Assembly (NCBI GenBank): GCA_030622115.1
Contig: JAUXGN010000005.1
Span: 1 to 64,000 of the forward strand
Origin: Candidatus Eiseniibacteriota bacterium
GTDB taxonomy: Bacteria; Joyebacterota; Joyebacteria; Joyebacterales; Joyebacteraceae
Reading direction: 5' to 3'
Length of the DNA stretch: 64,000 nt
The notes under the pieces are model-generated. The model searched no databases. It was not told the origin of the DNA and saw only the letters and a list, made by a program, of their open reading frames with translations. The position numbers were made by a program, and so were the translations under genes. Shown piece after piece: positions 47,426 through 60,070 of the stretch (positions are counted from its first letter, which is position 1; every line of letters starts with the position of its first letter).

Positions 47426-47501
47426 TGGTGGAGATGAGCGGGTTCGAACCGCCGACCTCTGCCTTGCGAAGGCAGCGCTCTCCCAACTGAGCTACATCCC
47501 C
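47426..47501 (-). tRNA. tRNA-Ala (anticodon CGC)
   Basis: The acceptor stem GGGGATG/CATCTCC contains the G3:U70 pair that identifies alanine tRNAs. The anticodon loop TTCGCAA gives CGC. The T arm is GGCGGTTCGAACCCGCT-like and CCA is encoded. Confidence 0.95.
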
Positions 47502-47533
47502 GTATCTATCTGTCACACTTGCGCGCTTGATGG

Positions 47534-47624
<91 letters not shown>

Positions 47625-47635
47625 GGACCGCATTC

Positions 47636-47725
47636 TGGCGGTGGGGGTGGGATTCGAACCCACGGTACCCAGAGGGTACAACGGTTTTCGAGACCGTCAC
47701 GATCGACCAGCTCCGTCACCCCACC
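47636..47725 (-). tRNA. tRNA-Ser (anticodon CGA)
   Basis: 90 bases with a long variable arm (GTACCC...GGGTAC). Anticodon loop CTCGAAA gives CGA. Acceptor GGTGGGG with CCCCACC, discriminator G, encoded CCA. Confidence 0.95.
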
Positions 47726-51888: not shown

Positions 51889-52704
51889 TCAGTCGCGAAC
51901 TGCATCCACCGCTATCTCGTGATGCGACAGTCCCCCTGCTACTGATGCTCCCGACAAGGAGATCCTGTTGTGCCCTGAAGCGAGTCGCCACGGCCCGAAT
52001 CGCCCTGCCGCATCAAGGGACTCCGGCCCACGTGTACCGTCATCGTTTGAGAGAGCCACTGAGATCGCCGGCGCCGGCCGCCCCCCCTTCTCCACGCGAC
52101 CCGTCAGTTCCGCGAAGCCGCCGGACCACTCAAGCAGATACTCGACCGTGATGCCGCCTTCCTCTCGCCAGAGCACGTTCACGGCAGTGTGGCGCGATCG
52201 TGCGGCCGCCGCCAGAGGCACATGGGGAGCAACGCTCCAACCCAGAAGCTCTTCGACTGAGGCTGCCACGGTTCTCGCAGTCGTCAGAGTCTTCTCCGAT
52301 ATCCTCACCAAGAGTGTCCGCCGCTCCTCTGTGAGACGCTTCATGACGCGTTCGATGGTCTCCTGCCTGACATCGCATTCGTGGGATTCTCCCATCGCCC
52401 ACATATCTGCCAATTCAGCCAGGCAGCTCCTGCAATGAACGAGATGTCGTTCGAACTCTGCAGCTCCGGATGAGTCCAGTCTTCCATCAGCATAGGCCAG
52501 AAGTTCATCCGACCTGGTGCAAACCGTGTCCGGCACTGCCGGTCCGGCGCGCTCTCTGAGGGCATGCGTCATTGCCGTCAGGATCGCCAGTTCTCTTCGG
52601 CAGCTCGGACAGTTGCGAAGGTGTTTCTCGAGTTCGGCGCGCTCAACTTCAGTCTCAAGGCCCTCGATGTAGGCAAGAAGCCGTTCGCGTGGTGGGCATA
52701 CCAT
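51889..52704 (-). CDS. Double zinc-finger (ZAS) anti-sigma factor, soluble
   Basis: Encodes 271 residues. Two zinc anti-sigma fingers are in tandem: HLRNCPSC (about 28-35) and HLVHCRSC (about 87-94), each HxxxCxxC, each preceded by a cysteine (Cys 3 and Cys 62). An amphipathic helical region follows (about 110-160), then about 100 residues of probable beta structure. There is no transmembrane segment, so the protein should be cytoplasmic, unlike most anti-sigma factors. It starts 13 bases after the sigma factor gene and would bind that sigma factor. Two fingers in one protein suggest an internal duplication. Confidence 0.85.
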   Translation of the reverse strand: MVCPPRERLLAYIEGLETEVERAELEKHLRNCPSCRRELAILTAMTHALRERAGPAVPDTVCTRSDELLAYADGRLDSSGAAEFERHLVHCRSCLAELADMWAMGESHECDVRQETIERVMKRLTEERRTLLVRISEKTLTTARTVAASVEELLGWSVAPHVPLAAAARSRHTAVNVLWREEGGITVEYLLEWSGGFAELTGRVEKGGRPAPAISVALSNDDGTRGPESLDAAGRFGPWRLASGHNRISLSGASVAGGLSHHEIAVDAVRD

Positions 52705-52717
52705 GATCGTCAGTCCC

Positions 52718-53392
52718 CTACTCCGTGTTCCAATGTTCTCTAACTCCCCCGTACTCCCTCATCTTACCAAGCGCCCTGTAGACCATGCCGCTGACTGCTC
52801 CGACCGTCATCCCAAGTCGTTCGCCTACATCTCTGTACGTGTAGCCCTCGAAGTAGATGAGATGAACGGCCAGTGCCTCCCTCGCCGTCAGAACCTGATC
52901 AATGGCCTGTTCCAGCGACAGCCTGAGATCCATCCGGTCCCGAGCGGAACTCCCATCATCCCGGACGGCCGTCGGTGCTCCTCGGTCGTCATCGGCCTCT
53001 TGAACTTCCCCTCTGCGTGCCGCCTTTCGAAGTTCATCGATGCACACATTCCGCGCGATTCTGTAGATCCAGGTCTCAAGGCGACAACGCCCCTGCCAGG
53101 ATGTGAGCGCGGCCGCATCGCGGCGCAAGAGCTTGAATAGCACATCCGCGAACAGGTCTTCCATGACAGCCTCGTCCCATCCCGCGCCGTACCGCCCATT
53201 CACCCTGTTGATGGCGCTGTAGAGAAGCCGTCGGTAGCGCTCAACGAACTCCCTCCACGCTTGAGCATCGCCCGCCGCAAGGCGCGCGATCAGCTTCACA
53301 CTCTCGTTGTCACGGTCCTTGGTAGAACGCAATGGGATTCCCTCGCCACACACTTCCGACGCGCCGGAGACCTTGGTTCTTCGCGCCGTCAT
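52718..53392 (-). CDS. ECF-type RNA polymerase sigma factor
   Basis: Encodes 224 residues. Region 2 spans about 50-125 (YRRLLYSAINRV, DLFADVLFKLLRR, CRLETWIYRIARNVCIDELRK). Region 4 is at about 165-215 (LTAREALAVHLIYFEGYTYRDVGERLGMTVGAVSGMVYRALGKMR). A 30-residue linker and no region 3 make it an ECF factor. AGAGG overlaps the stop of the CHAT gene six bases upstream, and the anti-sigma gene follows after 13 bases, so the three genes form one tight unit. Target promoters unknown. Confidence 0.92.
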   Translation of the reverse strand: MTARRTKVSGASEVCGEGIPLRSTKDRDNESVKLIARLAAGDAQAWREFVERYRRLLYSAINRVNGRYGAGWDEAVMEDLFADVLFKLLRRDAAALTSWQGRCRLETWIYRIARNVCIDELRKAARRGEVQEADDDRGAPTAVRDDGSSARDRMDLRLSLEQAIDQVLTAREALAVHLIYFEGYTYRDVGERLGMTVGAVSGMVYRALGKMREYGGVREHWNTE

Positions 53393-53398
53393 CCGCCT

Positions 53399-54853
53399 CT
53401 AGTCGATGAGTCTCGCAGTCGGGTCTCCGTACAGGATATAGTTTGCCCATGAGAAAGCGTGGAATCTGAAAGATCGCTCACGTGCAGATCGAACCGCTGC
53501 GCCCAGTGTATCGCCATTGAGAACGCTGCCGTAGAAGGCCAGCGCGAAGGCGGCGCTCCCGGCGTCATGAAGCTCCCAGAGAGTCCCCAGATAGGCCGGC
53601 ACACCAGCTTCGGCAAAGGAGAGAGCAAGCCCGCCCCCACCGACCGTGGTCCTTGTTCCCTCTCCGCATGCGTTCGAAAAGACAAGAAGCGGTATTGTCG
53701 CCGGCGAAAACAGATCTCGCCCATCGACTGTTTCACCGTTCGGGAGCACCCAACCCACGGCGCCGCTCTCATCCTGACCGGTGTGCCCCGCATAGTGAAC
53801 GATGTCATACCCTTCATTCAGCGTGGCAGCAAGCTCACTCCGATCACGTGGCGACCGCCTGACCACGCGTAGGAGTTCCGGTCGCAGCGCTCCGAGTTCG
53901 AGGATCTCCTGCGCCTCGCGCTCCGCTTGAGGGAGGCCGCGCCCATCATCACCGTATTCCACATCTGCTATGAGGAGCATCCTGAGAGGTCTTACGGGTC
54001 TGCGCCAAGCTGTCTCCCTTGAGGCGTCCGTCCTGATCTGCCGGGAGACGCAGTAGAGCTGCCACAGGGGCTGACCTCCCGATAGGGGAACCAGGAGTTC
54101 CCACGGGAAAGCGCTCAGCTCGCGCTGGACTCTCAGTAGCAGGTGGTCGCCCGGAAGATCCACCAGTTGTTCCATCGCACCGCCGTCATCGTCTCCGCCC
54201 AGGATGGACGCCAGGCTCCGTCCAAGAGCGTAAACGCGGCGATGCGCATCGGCGATCTCGTCGGCGCTCGGCAATCCATCACCGGCCTCGAATGCCACGC
54301 TCCGTCTGGCCAGATCATCGAGCTCGCGAAGAATCTTCTGCTCGTCCTCGCCGCGGCGATCCAGCGTGTAGTCTTGAGCGATGGCGCCTCGACTGCCGGT
54401 GAAGACCAGCGACAGTCTTCCTTCCGGCTCTGCTCTGATGTGAACATCCGGCGCGAGCACCGCATCAAAGACAGGATGCCTCGCTCGCCGAAGCCCAGCG
54501 AGCCAGAGCATGGTCGCCGCTATGACCAGTGCAGCAATCCAGCCGGGATGACGGAATCCCTCGGCCGTGCGTGTCAGCATGCGATACACGAGCGATCTTG
54601 CTCCGAAATCCGTGAGATTGAGCGCGATCCAGATCGCTACCAGGATCGCAACAAGCCATAGGCTGAATCTACGCATCCCGCGTCCGTCACGACGCATCTG
54701 CGATGGCGGCACTCGGCCCCACGGCAACTCCCTCCTGGACTCGGTTCCACACGACTCGCAGTGTGCCAGGCGCACAAGACGGGCGCTCCCGCGGCTCCAA
54801 GCCTCGCGTTCAACAACGGTGGTCCCACCACACATCGGACAGCGCATTCCCAT
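53399..54853 (-). CDS. Membrane-anchored CHAT-domain protease with N-terminal zinc ribbon
   Basis: Encodes 484 residues. The N-terminus is a zinc ribbon (CPMC at 5-8, CESC at 32-35), followed by two transmembrane helices (about 62-80 and 105-121) that form a hairpin, so both ends face the cytoplasm. A linker (about 130-280) leads to a CHAT caspase-like domain (about 285-484). The catalytic dyad is His 357 in VHYAGHTG and Cys 396 in FSNACGEG. FSWANYILYGDPTARL is the usual CHAT end. Immediately downstream are the ECF sigma and anti-sigma genes, which suggests that the protease acts on the anti-sigma factor. GGGAG precedes the ATG. Confidence 0.88.
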   Translation of the reverse strand: MGMRCPMCGGTTVVEREAWSRGSARLVRLAHCESCGTESRRELPWGRVPPSQMRRDGRGMRRFSLWLVAILVAIWIALNLTDFGARSLVYRMLTRTAEGFRHPGWIAALVIAATMLWLAGLRRARHPVFDAVLAPDVHIRAEPEGRLSLVFTGSRGAIAQDYTLDRRGEDEQKILRELDDLARRSVAFEAGDGLPSADEIADAHRRVYALGRSLASILGGDDDGGAMEQLVDLPGDHLLLRVQRELSAFPWELLVPLSGGQPLWQLYCVSRQIRTDASRETAWRRPVRPLRMLLIADVEYGDDGRGLPQAEREAQEILELGALRPELLRVVRRSPRDRSELAATLNEGYDIVHYAGHTGQDESGAVGWVLPNGETVDGRDLFSPATIPLLVFSNACGEGTRTTVGGGGLALSFAEAGVPAYLGTLWELHDAGSAAFALAFYGSVLNGDTLGAAVRSARERSFRFHAFSWANYILYGDPTARLID

Positions 54854-54960: not shown

Positions 54961-57090
54961 TCAGGAGGATGGTGTCTTGATGGAGGGTAGCCTGATCAGG
55001 TTGACCGGCTGCTCGACGCCGTGGTCCTCACACATGCAGGCGATCACCTGGCGCTCTGTCGACATTTCGCGCATCAGTTCCAGAGCCAGCTCTCGACGCT
55101 CCGGGTCGCAATTGACAAGAGAATCATCGAGTATGAAGGGCGCTCCGTCCTGTGAAGAGAGGAACTCCAGAAGAGCATAACGGGTGGCGAGATAAACCTG
55201 GTCGACCGTGCCGGTGCTGAGATCGCTTTGCAGCACATTGTCCGGGGCCCCGGGGAGGAGCGAAGGGTTGTCCACTGAGACCTCAAGGTCCTTGCTGACC
55301 GACACGCCTGAGTACCTTCCGCCAGTGATCCGCTCAAGAACTCTGCTGATGATCGGTGTGAGCACCTCAGCGGCCTCTTTCTTCGTGCTGCTGAGCGCAT
55401 CCTCGAGTCCACCTGCCGCCAACTGCATGATCCTGATGCGACGCTCCACTCTGTCGATCTCGGCCACGACGGATTCCTGCCTTGCCTCAAGATCCGGAAG
55501 AGCGTCTCCTTCCTCGTCGCGCTCCATTCGGATCTGATCGTCGTCGTTGGCACGTTGCAGACGAGCTTCGAGTTCCTTCTTACTGTCTCGCTCTTCCCGA
55601 AGCTTCGCAAGTCCAGCCCTGTCGACAAGCAGCTCGGCAGCGTCGTTTCCACCGAGCAGCCCGTCGAGTTCTGCTCGTCTGCGGCCCAACGACACGGCCT
55701 CTGTGCGAAGCTGCTCCTCGAATTCCTCGGGGTCTTTGCCGTCACAAACCTCGTCCAGCTGAGCCCTCGAGATCTCGGCGCGACGCCAGAGCGTATCTTG
55801 GATCTCTGTGATGCGCGCGAACTCCGCGTAGCTTGGCACACCAATCTTCATGAGAGCGGACTGAAGGGCAAGCTCCCTCTTTCCGCGCTCCCGCATGTGA
55901 TTCCTCAAACCACGCTCGTACTCGAGTATCCGGGCTAGACGACGGAATTGGACGATCGACCAAAGCAGTAGGACCGAAGCAGCCCCACCCAGCAAGATAC
56001 GGGTCGTAGGATCGTCCACCGTGAAGATCGTAGCTGAGGCAGTCGCAAGCCCAACGATGACCAGCGCAGCGCAGACCGCACCGGTCTTGGAGCTTGAGAC
56101 TCCCTCCTTCAGGGTTGACCCCTCTTTGAATTGACTTATCAGCCGCTCCGTCGCCTCGAGGTCGCCCCTTGCGAACTTGACCACCTCGACCTCCACTGCC
56201 GGAACGCTCTCCTTCTCGCATCCGGCATCGTCCAGATCGGCCTTGAGCTTCCGGATTCTCGCGATCGTGGTCTCTCTTTCAAGCAGCTTCCCTCGAGTCA
56301 GCTCAAGTTCCTCAGATAGCTGAATGCTCGATTCCTGCTCCTCCACAATTCTCACGAGGCGGTCCAGGTCGTCCCTAACGGCGGCCCACTCCTCCCGTCT
56401 GCGCGCGTGCGCCGCCTTCCTTGACAACTGTCTGGTCCACTCCTGGCTAACCAGAGCAATCCTCTGTGCCAGTGTTCGTCCTTCATCCACCAGACTCTTG
56501 AGGCGACCAGGGCGTGCCGCCGGCCGGTCCATACCGACACGGAGTTCCCGAGTGTGCTCCAGAAGCGCTGCGACAACTGCGGCCGCATCGACTCGGCCGC
56601 TCGCGCTCGTCATTTTGCGTTCTATCATCGGGACAAGCTCGGCCCGCCTGCTCTTGCCCGGTTGTCCGCCAAACGCAACCAACTCACCCTGTCGCACCAT
56701 GGCAACCGACTCGAATGCCTCACGGCTCCCGAACCCGATCATCTCGGCGACGAATTCATTCACCTTGCCGCGTTCAGCCACGAGCCCGATATCCGGACCG
56801 CTGAGTTCAACCCGTCCGGTTCCGAAGTCCTTGCTGAGTTCGTACTCTCTTCCGCCGTGCTCGAATGTGAGTTCCAGACGCATTCCCCCCGTCGATCCCC
56901 ATGACTCGAGATCTCGGACGGCCTTCGCCTTCGTGCTCGAATCAACGAACAGCACGACCCCGAGCGCGTCGATGATCGTGCTCTTCCCTGATTCGTTGCT
57001 GCCGATGAGGAGATTGAGACCCGGAGCAAGATTGAGCTCGTAGTCCCCAAACCTCCTGAAGTTCCGCAGCCTGAGTCGCCTCAGTCTCAC
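54961..57090 (-). CDS. YhaN/SbcC-like AAA ATPase with membrane hairpin
   Basis: Encodes 709 residues. RecF/SMC-type head: LRLRNFRRFGDYELNLAPGLNLLIGSNESGKST (Walker A) at the start, and LSTGTVDQVYLATRYALLEFL (signature) with FILDDSLVNCD (Walker B) at the end. Between them two coiled-coil arms flank two hydrophobic segments (about 345-390: GAVCAALVIVGLATASATIF and TRILLGGAASVLLLWSIVQF), so the apex of the coiled coil may be in the membrane instead of carrying a zinc hook. This matches B. subtilis YhaN-like proteins. It overlaps the nuclease gene by four bases and would form an SbcCD-like complex with it. Confidence 0.88.
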   Translation of the reverse strand: MRLRRLRLRNFRRFGDYELNLAPGLNLLIGSNESGKSTIIDALGVVLFVDSSTKAKAVRDLESWGSTGGMRLELTFEHGGREYELSKDFGTGRVELSGPDIGLVAERGKVNEFVAEMIGFGSREAFESVAMVRQGELVAFGGQPGKSRRAELVPMIERKMTSASGRVDAAAVVAALLEHTRELRVGMDRPAARPGRLKSLVDEGRTLAQRIALVSQEWTRQLSRKAAHARRREEWAAVRDDLDRLVRIVEEQESSIQLSEELELTRGKLLERETTIARIRKLKADLDDAGCEKESVPAVEVEVVKFARGDLEATERLISQFKEGSTLKEGVSSSKTGAVCAALVIVGLATASATIFTVDDPTTRILLGGAASVLLLWSIVQFRRLARILEYERGLRNHMRERGKRELALQSALMKIGVPSYAEFARITEIQDTLWRRAEISRAQLDEVCDGKDPEEFEEQLRTEAVSLGRRRAELDGLLGGNDAAELLVDRAGLAKLREERDSKKELEARLQRANDDDQIRMERDEEGDALPDLEARQESVVAEIDRVERRIRIMQLAAGGLEDALSSTKKEAAEVLTPIISRVLERITGGRYSGVSVSKDLEVSVDNPSLLPGAPDNVLQSDLSTGTVDQVYLATRYALLEFLSSQDGAPFILDDSLVNCDPERRELALELMREMSTERQVIACMCEDHGVEQPVNLIRLPSIKTPSS

Positions 57091-58229
57091 GCCAGCACGT
57101 CCTTCCCCTGAAGCAGTGCAACTCCCATCTGAAGGGCCGCCTCCAGATCCTCCCGCTCGTCAGCGTCATCGGCAGCGTCGATCCGCCCCTTCATGAGCCG
57201 AACAAACCGCCCTATGACGAGCCGTTCCGGAAGCGCTTCCAGATCATCCTGCCCAAGTCGCACTTCGTAGTTCAGCCGCGGCGACCTGACATGGAAATAG
57301 TCGGGTCTCAGGATCTTCAACAGCGCTTCCGGCTCAAAGCCGGAAGCAACATGCATGAGACCAGTCAGTGTCACCGAGAGGATCGCGTTCGGGTCCTTGG
57401 GGTGCTCAAGAGCAACCCGACGCGCAACGTCGTCTGTATCCATCGCCCCACCCACGTCGATCTGCACGCTCGACACTGTACGTGCACCCACTCGCACTTT
57501 CGTTACCCGCGCCCCGTCACTGCCGAGACCGATCCGCGCAATGTGTCCGGATCCGCCCTGGTCGGTCGCAATCACCTCCGGTGCTCCCGGGTAGACGGCC
57601 GGTGGACCGTTCCCCTCGATCTCCCTCCAGGAGTGCCAGTGCCCAAGAGCGAAGTAGGACCAGCCTGGCGCCAAAAGCTCCTCGCGCGATATCGGATGGT
57701 CCTCCGGTTCCACAGGGAGCACATCGACCGAGCCGTGCGCTATCGCAATGTTGTACTCGTGGCCCGCATCCGGCCTGAGCTTCGCGAGCCTGTGCTCACT
57801 CGATCGGTTCGCACGCGGCGGGTCTCCGTGTACGACCAGACTTGCGCGGGGGATCACGACCGAACGCAGATCACGCGCGCCCAGAATATGGACGCGCTCA
57901 AGCTGGGCGAACTCGTCGGCGTAGCAGGAGAAGACCGATCCCTCACCCATGTGATCGTGTGAACCCGGCAGGATAACGGCATGAGTCTCGGAGGAACCAC
58001 CCAGACGCAGGAGTTCGCGCAGCACGAACCGCACCGCCGACGCTGGTGGCCGGTTGCTGTCGAAGAGATCTCCGGCGATGATGAGGCAGTCTGCGTCCTC
58101 CTGAATCGTCAGATCGATGATCGACCGGAAGGTCTGCCGGAGCTGGTCGCGCTGATCGGATGCGCGCGCTCCAAGCCAACCGAGCGGCGCCCCGAGGTGC
58201 ACATCAGCTGTGTGAATAACAGTAGGCAA
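57087..58229 (-). CDS. SbcD/YhaO-like metallophosphoesterase (DNA exonuclease)
   Basis: Encodes 380 residues from TTG 58229, which has GGAGGT just upstream. Calcineurin-type motifs are in order: HTADVHLG, IIAGDLFDSN, LPGSHDHM, IAHGSVD and ALGHWHSW. These bind two metal ions in Mre11/SbcD nucleases. A capping domain and a C-terminal helical region for binding the ATPase follow. The overlap with the YhaN-like gene supports a complex that processes DNA ends. Confidence 0.9.
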   Translation of the reverse strand: MPTVIHTADVHLGAPLGWLGARASDQRDQLRQTFRSIIDLTIQEDADCLIIAGDLFDSNRPPASAVRFVLRELLRLGGSSETHAVILPGSHDHMGEGSVFSCYADEFAQLERVHILGARDLRSVVIPRASLVVHGDPPRANRSSEHRLAKLRPDAGHEYNIAIAHGSVDVLPVEPEDHPISREELLAPGWSYFALGHWHSWREIEGNGPPAVYPGAPEVIATDQGGSGHIARIGLGSDGARVTKVRVGARTVSSVQIDVGGAMDTDDVARRVALEHPKDPNAILSVTLTGLMHVASGFEPEALLKILRPDYFHVRSPRLNYEVRLGQDDLEALPERLVIGRFVRLMKGRIDAADDADEREDLEAALQMGVALLQGKDVLA

Positions 58230-58358
58230 GAGACCTCCACAAAACCGCACACGGCACGAGTGATCCGGACACAATCCCCCACATTGCTACAAGTCAAGTG
58301 CCGTGCCATGTTACACGCGTAACAGCTCACATCCTCAGGATAGGACAGCCCCGGCACT

Positions 58359-59597
58359 CTAGCGCCAGTGTTTCTCCTCCCAATCGACAAGGAGTCGCCA
58401 AGTGTCGTTCGTCATCCCCGGGAATATCCCTCCATAGGCCGGGTCCGGACCATCGAATTCCGGATCCGGGAATGTGATCGGCTCGGTAACATACATCGTG
58501 TCGCCGTCGACCGACCACGTGTGCCACGGCAAGTAGCTTCTGAGATCGGGAAGTGGATCGTTGAATAGGGACTCAAGGCTGACATGGATGTCGATATCCG
58601 GTGCATCATCTTCGTACTCATGCAGGTTTACGATCCCCTCCCCGAACAACACTTCCTCAAGAAGGTCTGCCGCGTCGCGCAGCGTCTCCACCGCGCCCGG
58701 CCCCAAAACATCATCATCCTCCAGAACCACCCACCCCGGCTCGGACACCGTGATGAAATCCCACTCCTGGTCGTCGCTCTCGCCTTCGAGAGCATCGCAT
58801 GCATCGCGGAGATGGTAGACGGCTCCCATCAATTCAGCCTCCGCTGAACTCATGAAGTCAGCATCGTTCAAGGTCAGGAAATCCGCGTCCTCTTCGATCA
58901 GATACTCCAGATTCTCTGCTCCGGTCGTGTCGGCGTTGTAGGAAATCCCTAGATAGCAGAGCGCTTGCATGATGTCGACAGCCACGTGCACGAAGTAAGC
59001 ATCGGCGACATCGAATTCCAGGTAGTCCGGCAGCTGCAGCGAATCCGGTAGAGCAGGATCTGTGTAGAGAACAACCACCCCACCCAATTCCTCAAATGTG
59101 CTCAAATAGACATCCACCTCATTGAGCGACGGAAGCACTTCGTCTGTGATGAACTCCTGGATGTCCGAGAAAACGAAATCCCCTCTCCTGCTCGCCCGGA
59201 TGACACTCCGTATCGCCTCGGGATCCGGCAGGGTGAGATACCAGAAGAGGGCATTGTGTCTTGCGCTCCGTGTCTCATCACCGAAGAGCTCCTCCATGAT
59301 GCGACCGAGCTCCTCATCGCCGGCGGTCACCATCGTGCGGCAGAAGGCCGCCATCAGGAGGGCGTCGTCATTATTCGGATCATTCTCCAGGACCGACTCG
59401 AAGCACTCGAGATGCTGCTGAAAATCGACATCCCACTCCCAAGGCAACTCTTCCATGTCCATATCCACAAGGTCCGCCTCGAGCACAACGAGGCAGCTGA
59501 GTTCGGTCGGCCCGTTCTCCTCGGTCGAGCAGCCCGATCCAACCAGCACGAGTATTGCTGCCAGGAAGAGCAGTCCTCTGAGTTTCGCCATCTGCAT
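58359..59597 (-). CDS. Predicted lipoprotein, unknown function
   Basis: Encodes about 412 residues from ATG 59597 (GGAG upstream; a second ATG six bases later). The signal peptide ends in a lipobox (LVGSGC, Cys 23). The mature protein is acidic. CFESVLENDPNNDDALLMAAFCRTM looks like a TPR helix pair, and further helical pairs follow (YFVHVAVDIMQALCYLGISYNAD; YHLRDACDALEG). No enzyme motif is seen. I do not recognise the family. It is upstream of the yhaO-like gene on the same strand with a 130-base gap. Confidence 0.7.
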   Translation of the reverse strand: MQMAKLRGLLFLAAILVLVGSGCSTEENGPTELSCLVVLEADLVDMDMEELPWEWDVDFQQHLECFESVLENDPNNDDALLMAAFCRTMVTAGDEELGRIMEELFGDETRSARHNALFWYLTLPDPEAIRSVIRASRRGDFVFSDIQEFITDEVLPSLNEVDVYLSTFEELGGVVVLYTDPALPDSLQLPDYLEFDVADAYFVHVAVDIMQALCYLGISYNADTTGAENLEYLIEEDADFLTLNDADFMSSAEAELMGAVYHLRDACDALEGESDDQEWDFITVSEPGWVVLEDDDVLGPGAVETLRDAADLLEEVLFGEGIVNLHEYEDDAPDIDIHVSLESLFNDPLPDLRSYLPWHTWSVDGDTMYVTEPITFPDPEFDGPDPAYGGIFPGMTNDTWRLLVDWEEKHWR

Positions 59598-59776
59598 TTC
59601 TGGTGTCTCCGGTGCAGTGGCCCGATACGGGGCCGTGAATTGCTCGCTTCCGGCCCTTGCCGCACCGATGTGCGGGAGGCCTCTATCGACCTCGACACCG
59701 TACCGAACGCATTTGGGCAAGTCAACCATCAAGAAAAGAGACATCCCCGCGCCCTTTCGGGCCCGGGGATGCATTC

Positions 59777-59853
59777 TGGTACGCCCAGGAGGACTCGAAC
59801 CCCCAACCTTCTGATCCGTAGTCAGATGCTCTATCCAATTGAGCTATGGGCGC
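59777..59853 (-). tRNA. tRNA-Arg (anticodon ACG)
   Basis: Acceptor GCGCCCA/TGGGCGT, anticodon loop CTACGGA (ACG), T arm GGGGGTTCGAGTCCTCC-like, encoded CCA. Its A34 is the substrate for TadA at 47750. Confidence 0.95.
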
Positions 59854-59863
59854 TTCACTGATC

Positions 59864-59953
<90 letters not shown>

Positions 59954-59983
59954 GTCCTGCCTTTTCACCTACACCATCCATTG

Positions 59984-60070
59984 TGGCGGAGGGCGAGGGA
60001 CTCGAACCCCCAAGGGCGCAAACCCGGCGGTTTTCAAGACCGCTGCCTTACCAATTAGGACTAGCCCTCC
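59984..60070 (-). tRNA. tRNA-Ser (anticodon TGA)
   Basis: 87 bases with a long variable arm. Anticodon loop CTTGAAA gives TGA, reading TCA codons. Acceptor GGAGGGC with GCCCTCC, discriminator G, encoded CCA. The anticodon is not TCA, so it is not tRNA-Sec. Confidence 0.93.

Follow-up and report, generated by a model that had tools for sequence, protein, structure and literature searches.

A CHAT protease, an ECF sigma factor and a soluble double-ZAS anti-sigma factor encoded as one unit in Candidatus Eisenbacteria: a candidate CRISPR-independent proteolytic switch

In the CASP system of type III-E CRISPR, the CHAT protease Csx29 (TPR-CHAT) cuts Csx30, the inhibitor of the ECF sigma factor CASP-sigma (PMC10028731). 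The CalpL, CalpT and CalpS proteins are a protease, a soluble anti-sigma factor and an ECF sigma factor, respectively (PMC11417357). The DdvA/DdvS system of Myxococcus xanthus is represented by the PDB entries 8rot, 8rw5 and 8rlz (Bernal-Bernal 2024, cited here from its title as quoted in PMC12288465). Lastly, ECF54 sigma factors have CHAT proteins in their genetic context, and proteolysis has been proposed for them; PMC8999054, citing Casas-Pastor 2021, describes the group as devoid of an anti-sigma factor. Regarding soluble anti-sigma factors, this 2022 review reports release by conformational change, partner switching and mechanosensing. An earlier note, made from the letters of the present DNA alone, mentioned neither CalpL/T/S nor DdvA/DdvS nor ECF54, and the system described below is less isolated than that note suggested. 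A literature search returned no paper pairing a CHAT domain with zf-HC2.

The three genes and their products

The window, i.e. the whole stretch of 64,000 nucleotides analysed, carries on its minus strand a CHAT protease gene (54853-53399), an ECF sigma factor gene (53392-52718) and a double-ZAS anti-sigma factor gene (52704-51889). The three genes and their gaps of 6 bases (CHAT/sigma) and 13 bases (sigma/ZAS) had been read correctly in the earlier note, with Pfam and NCBIfam matches well over cut-off, the 6-base gap being dependent on the start since the sigma ORF begins ~20 codons later in several relatives. The source genome (G000) contains a single CHAT gene. SbcC-like (709 residues, short) and SbcD-like genes, co-oriented with CHAT, immediately precede it at positions 54961-58274; this pair lies in the same block in every long-contig relative. 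An inverted repeat, TGTTACgcgtGTAACA (58309-58324), located ~35 bp upstream of sbcD and partially retained in the relative L028, is a possible operator. The 471-residue protein encoded at 58359-59774 has no clear Pfam or NCBIfam match and is kept at the same place in nearly all relatives, and tRNA clusters (Ala, Ser, Ser; Arg, Ser, Ser) stand on both sides of the block, at 47426-47725 and 59777-60070. Footprinting upstream of CHAT and of sbcD did not return any convincing ECF promoter.

The CHAT protein (P0001, 484 residues) matches Pfam CHAT (PF12770, 84.4 bits for a cut-off of 24) and Peptidase_C25 (PF01364, 37 bits). Its CHAT domain covers residues 231-477 (53423-54163) and is predicted to be cytoplasmic. 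The His/Cys pair of the CHAT family is present: His353 and His357, which delimit a HYAGH motif (53783-53797), and the predicted catalytic Cys396 (53666-53668) are all invariant among relatives in the alignments A1 and A6, which bears out the dyad and the Cys396 of the earlier note. His357 is likely the catalytic histidine. The N-terminal zinc ribbon announced there is also found, as Cys5-x2-Cys8 and Cys32-x2-Cys35 (54749-54841), nearly invariant among 16 relatives and missing in one, L041, as its gene was read. The announced membrane hairpin corresponds to two hydrophobic segments, at residues ~62-81 (54611-54670, hydropathy up to 2.23, helix 57-79 in a low-confidence model) and ~103-121 (54491-54547, hydropathy 1.81, helix 104-124 in a low-confidence model). 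Judging from hydropathy and from the positive flanks of both segments, this hairpin would anchor CHAT to the membrane with the zinc ribbon and the protease domain both in the cytoplasm. A CHAT structure model computed from three sequences reached a mean pLDDT of 44 and was set aside; the alignments behind the structure models are shallow.

The sigma factor (P0002, 224 residues) scores 95.2 bits against TIGR02937 (cut-off 42.9), and Pfam reports regions 2 and 4 only (Sigma70_r2 and Sigma70_r4), confirming an ECF sigma factor. The third protein (P0003, 271 residues) matches zf-HC2 in two stretches (52.7 bits, over cut-off). Its first finger is formed by C3, H28, C32 and C35 (52600-52698) and its second by C62, H87, C91 and C94 (52423-52521). 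These eight ligands are invariant in 15 relatives and the top 19-residue hydropathy is 0.92, devoid of any membrane segment, in agreement with the soluble protein with two HxxxCxxC fingers described before. The AlphaFold2 model comprises eight strands at residues 173-266 (51907-52188; pLDDT about 64-84), preceded by a linker (residues 103-172) with pLDDT below 50, and supports the C-terminal beta region of the earlier note. A PDB fold search with this model gave no match better than E 0.017, and our claim for the domain is therefore limited to an Ig-like beta topology.

Conservation, apparent loss and recurrence of the unit

The CHAT protein occurs in 18 of the 20 Candidatus Eisenbacteria genomes examined, all belonging to one family. 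Every sufficiently long contig keeps the order and strand of CHAT, sigma and ZAS, within a syntenic block that reads x58362-sbcD-sbcC-CHAT-sigma-ZAS-HK-RR-tadA-dnaX. As the whole block is conserved, neighbourhood alone proves little in this phylum, and the adjacency of the triplet might simply be inherited gene order without any functional link. This explanation is very improbable and already disfavoured by what is seen in the genome G016 (100% complete), as well as by the enrichment outside the phylum reported below. In G016 the block is intact minus exactly the triplet, with 230 bp from sbcC to the histidine kinase gene. The tree of the block genes places G016 beside G017, which possesses the triplet, and loss of the whole unit is therefore the simplest reading, although a single gain of the triplet would do as well if the root lay on the G016 branch. 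Since G016 keeps SbcCD, the histidine kinase and the response regulator without the triplet, those neighbours are unnecessary for defining the unit.

Outside Candidatus Eisenbacteria, profile searches report CHAT relatives in many genomes. Of 82 such CHAT genes, 27 have a sigma gene no more than 1.2 kb away, against 0.79 expected from the sigma count of each genome itself, and a ZAS protein is also present at 22 of these 27 loci. In a second batch, from which L237 was excluded as it had been taken from a sigma list, 14 of 38 CHAT genes have a sigma gene at such a distance. Similarity to the Eisenbacteria CHAT family was the criterion by which the outside genes were picked; the fractions therefore do not extend to CHAT genes at large, many of which are devoid of a sigma neighbour. 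The gene-neighbourhood search proposed in the earlier note thus finds the triplet conserved in relatives, and this strong sigma enrichment amid different neighbours, like the ZAS-CHAT fusions presented below, is hard to reconcile with mere inheritance of gene order.

The nearest outside CHAT relatives adjoin an ECF sigma factor and a soluble ZAS protein, with different sensor parts. Beside sigma and ZAS genes, L111 (5390-8611), L112 (115-3483) and L116 (6216-9092) encode proteins with a class III cyclase-like part, CHAT, a membrane segment, TPR and a CsgG-like part; L115 resembles this type without the cyclase part. The L121 and L122 proteins carry a membrane segment and PEGA on CHAT. In the CHAT domain tree, the Eisenbacteria, cyclase (C) and PEGA (P) groups form one clade (support 0.998), whereas in the sigma tree Eisenbacteria do not cluster with the other groups; we therefore make no claim that the three genes descended jointly. 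Of note, the 567-residue CHAT proteins encoded at L118 (6281-7981) and L119 (5579-7279) differ in their N-terminal part and lack an adjacent sigma gene. The earlier note proposed that the zinc ribbon, or else the membrane part, triggers the protease. With cyclase-like, CsgG-like or PEGA sensors in the outside relatives and the ribbon missing in L041, the zinc ribbon is a weak candidate for the trigger.

The loci L121 and L122 also harbour a gene for an AhpC/TSA-like protein with hydrophobic ends (L121, 1551-2105; L122, 8013-8558), inserted between CHAT and sigma, which is a possible redox input. This gene bears on a reading in which the anti-sigma factor itself senses redox state or metal directly, in the way of RsrA and ChrR, with CHAT tuning it without cutting or another protease cutting at Arg169. 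Soluble ZAS proteins of known function do answer oxidative stress by conformational change (PMC8999054). We nevertheless hold a direct sensor to be unlikely: the AhpC/TSA-like gene is limited to the PEGA group examined and absent from the window, and the CHAT proteins compared keep their catalytic His and Cys, which argues against a mere scaffold.

A candidate cleavage site and matched compartments

The reading we lean towards, as probable on the sequence evidence, is a CRISPR-independent switch by regulated proteolysis in which CHAT would cut the anti-sigma factor after Arg169 and free the sigma factor. Family membership and gene order suggest that, in the cytoplasm, the double-ZAS protein holds on to the ECF sigma factor. 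A signal at the membrane or at the ribbon would activate CHAT, which would then cut after Arg169, between the fingers and helices on one side and the beta domain on the other, so that the two parts separate. The part that binds sigma would then let go of it, possibly once degraded further in the manner of RseA and Csx30, and the sigma factor would be released. The switch put forward in the earlier note is thereby supported in part: it is favoured by a triplet that is conserved, absent as a whole from G016 and found again in other phyla, by matched compartments and by an invariant Arg, whereas we infer the cleavage, the sigma binding and the trigger.

The proposed cleavage site, Arg169 (AAAAR|SRH, 52198-52200), sits in the low-confidence linker of the AlphaFold2 model, just ahead of the beta domain. 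When 32 soluble ZAS proteins linked to CHAT, drawn from four groups, are aligned, it is the sole fully conserved column after the fingers. With six more loci, the Arg column reaches 38/38 and the next best column 92%, in an alignment by MAFFT, which may favour aligning Arg, and with an unconvincing Arg context in 2 of the 38 (L174 and L215). For four proteins the prediction had been fixed in advance; L230, L217 and L240 are clear fits and L215 is weak. Two loci had been viewed shortly before that prediction, L202 being a clear fit and L174 weak. Small residues flank the Arg (AAAAR|S, PVPVR|G, LPAAAR|R), which is invariant also in the independent Eisenbacteria-only alignment A3. Among relatives in clan CD, gingipain R and separase for instance, Arg is a usual P1 residue. 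On these grounds, Arg169 is proposed as the CHAT cut site; an invariant Arg can also be a structural or interface residue. Regarding the domain that follows, hhalign reports that the anti-sigma C-terminal domains of the C and P groups are clearly related (98%), and does not return any significant similarity to the others for the Eisenbacteria and T groups. The Arg shared by Eisenbacteria and the other groups therefore rests on position and motif.

The compartments of the two proteins agree as well. Among the 22 assessable loci with a ZAS protein devoid of a membrane segment, none has an export signal on CHAT; where the ZAS protein has such a segment, CHAT bears a signal peptide or lipobox in 9 of 10, in a set of loci that are not mutually independent, with signal peptides judged from hydropathy and by eye and with a ZAS membrane segment in L233 that falls under the automatic threshold. 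In the exception, L221, no export signal was found, and its start is possibly wrong. CHAT would thus follow the compartment of the anti-sigma C-terminal part, as contact between them requires, a pattern that favours CHAT acting on the anti-sigma factor. Furthermore, at L234 (8199-11243), a single chain of 1015 residues adjoining a sigma gene combines ZAS, a membrane segment and CHAT, in a DdvA-like manner, and the PDB entries 8rot and 8rw5 exhibit the same succession of parts within a single chain, their N-terminus matching the DdvA ZAS entry 8rlz.

CHAT could instead be the output, the sigma/anti-sigma pair sensing stress alone and CHAT being a co-expressed effector that acts on other proteins. 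CHAT proteases are effectors in CRISPR settings (PMC11417357, PMC9729208), and as CHAT comes first in the Eisenbacteria triplet it could be co-transcribed with a self-regulating sigma factor. Such a role as a pure effector appears improbable, as it leaves unexplained the compartment match, the ZAS-CHAT fusions and the single invariant Arg of the linker.

Comparison with known systems

By the cas1 test, the triplet is not a CRISPR system. The PF01867 search reports no cas1 in G000 and 11 other Eisenbacteria genomes, and finds it in 6 of 17 other genomes; no CRISPR-like array occurs among the direct repeats at 40000-64000 of the window. The CRISPR-free setting assumed in the earlier note thereby holds for the 12 Eisenbacteria genomes and this part of the window. 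A caspase-like switch of this kind, free of CRISPR and with one predicted cut site, would, if real, broaden the roles of bacterial caspase relatives and hint at the origin of CRISPR protease modules. A bolder reading, which we regard as possible though doubtful, is that CHAT cutting a soluble ZAS protein after one Arg represents a widespread CRISPR-independent class with interchangeable sensors, and that Csx29, Csx30 and CASP-sigma were recruited from that pool.

Similar to CASP, the triplet combines a CHAT protease with a presumed inhibitor of its ECF sigma factor, cleavage being only proposed here. In contrast, Csx29 is soluble and is activated by Cas7-11 and target RNA, while the CHAT protein of the triplet is predicted to be membrane-anchored and the presumed inhibitor is a double-ZAS protein. 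A profile search of the PDB with the ZAS profile did not match any Csx30 chain at E up to 1. The cut site of Csx30, Met427-Lys428, is also unlike the Arg169 motif. The RseA/RsiW cascades of site-1 and site-2 proteolysis differ in that DegS or PrsW and then RseP cut a membrane-spanning anti-sigma factor, and not a soluble one as here. With CalpL/T/S, the triplet shares a three-part set of protease, soluble anti-sigma factor and ECF sigma factor; however, CalpL is a Lon-type protease that carries a SAVED domain, is switched on by cyclic oligoadenylate and is linked to CRISPR (PMC11417357). As for ECF54, an ECF sigma factor is encoded near a CHAT gene, with the difference that an anti-sigma factor is present here. 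The triplet also resembles DdvA/DdvS, which likewise unites a ZAS anti-sigma factor and a CHAT domain with an ECF sigma factor. However, DdvA is a single transmembrane chain, while ZAS and CHAT are encoded by two genes in the triplet and the ZAS protein is devoid of a membrane segment. Moreover, the CHAT part of DdvA lies in the periplasm and its active site is incomplete, in contrast to the triplet CHAT, which is predicted to be cytoplasmic and has its catalytic pair intact. The triplet is a new CRISPR-free variant that stands beside these known precedents.
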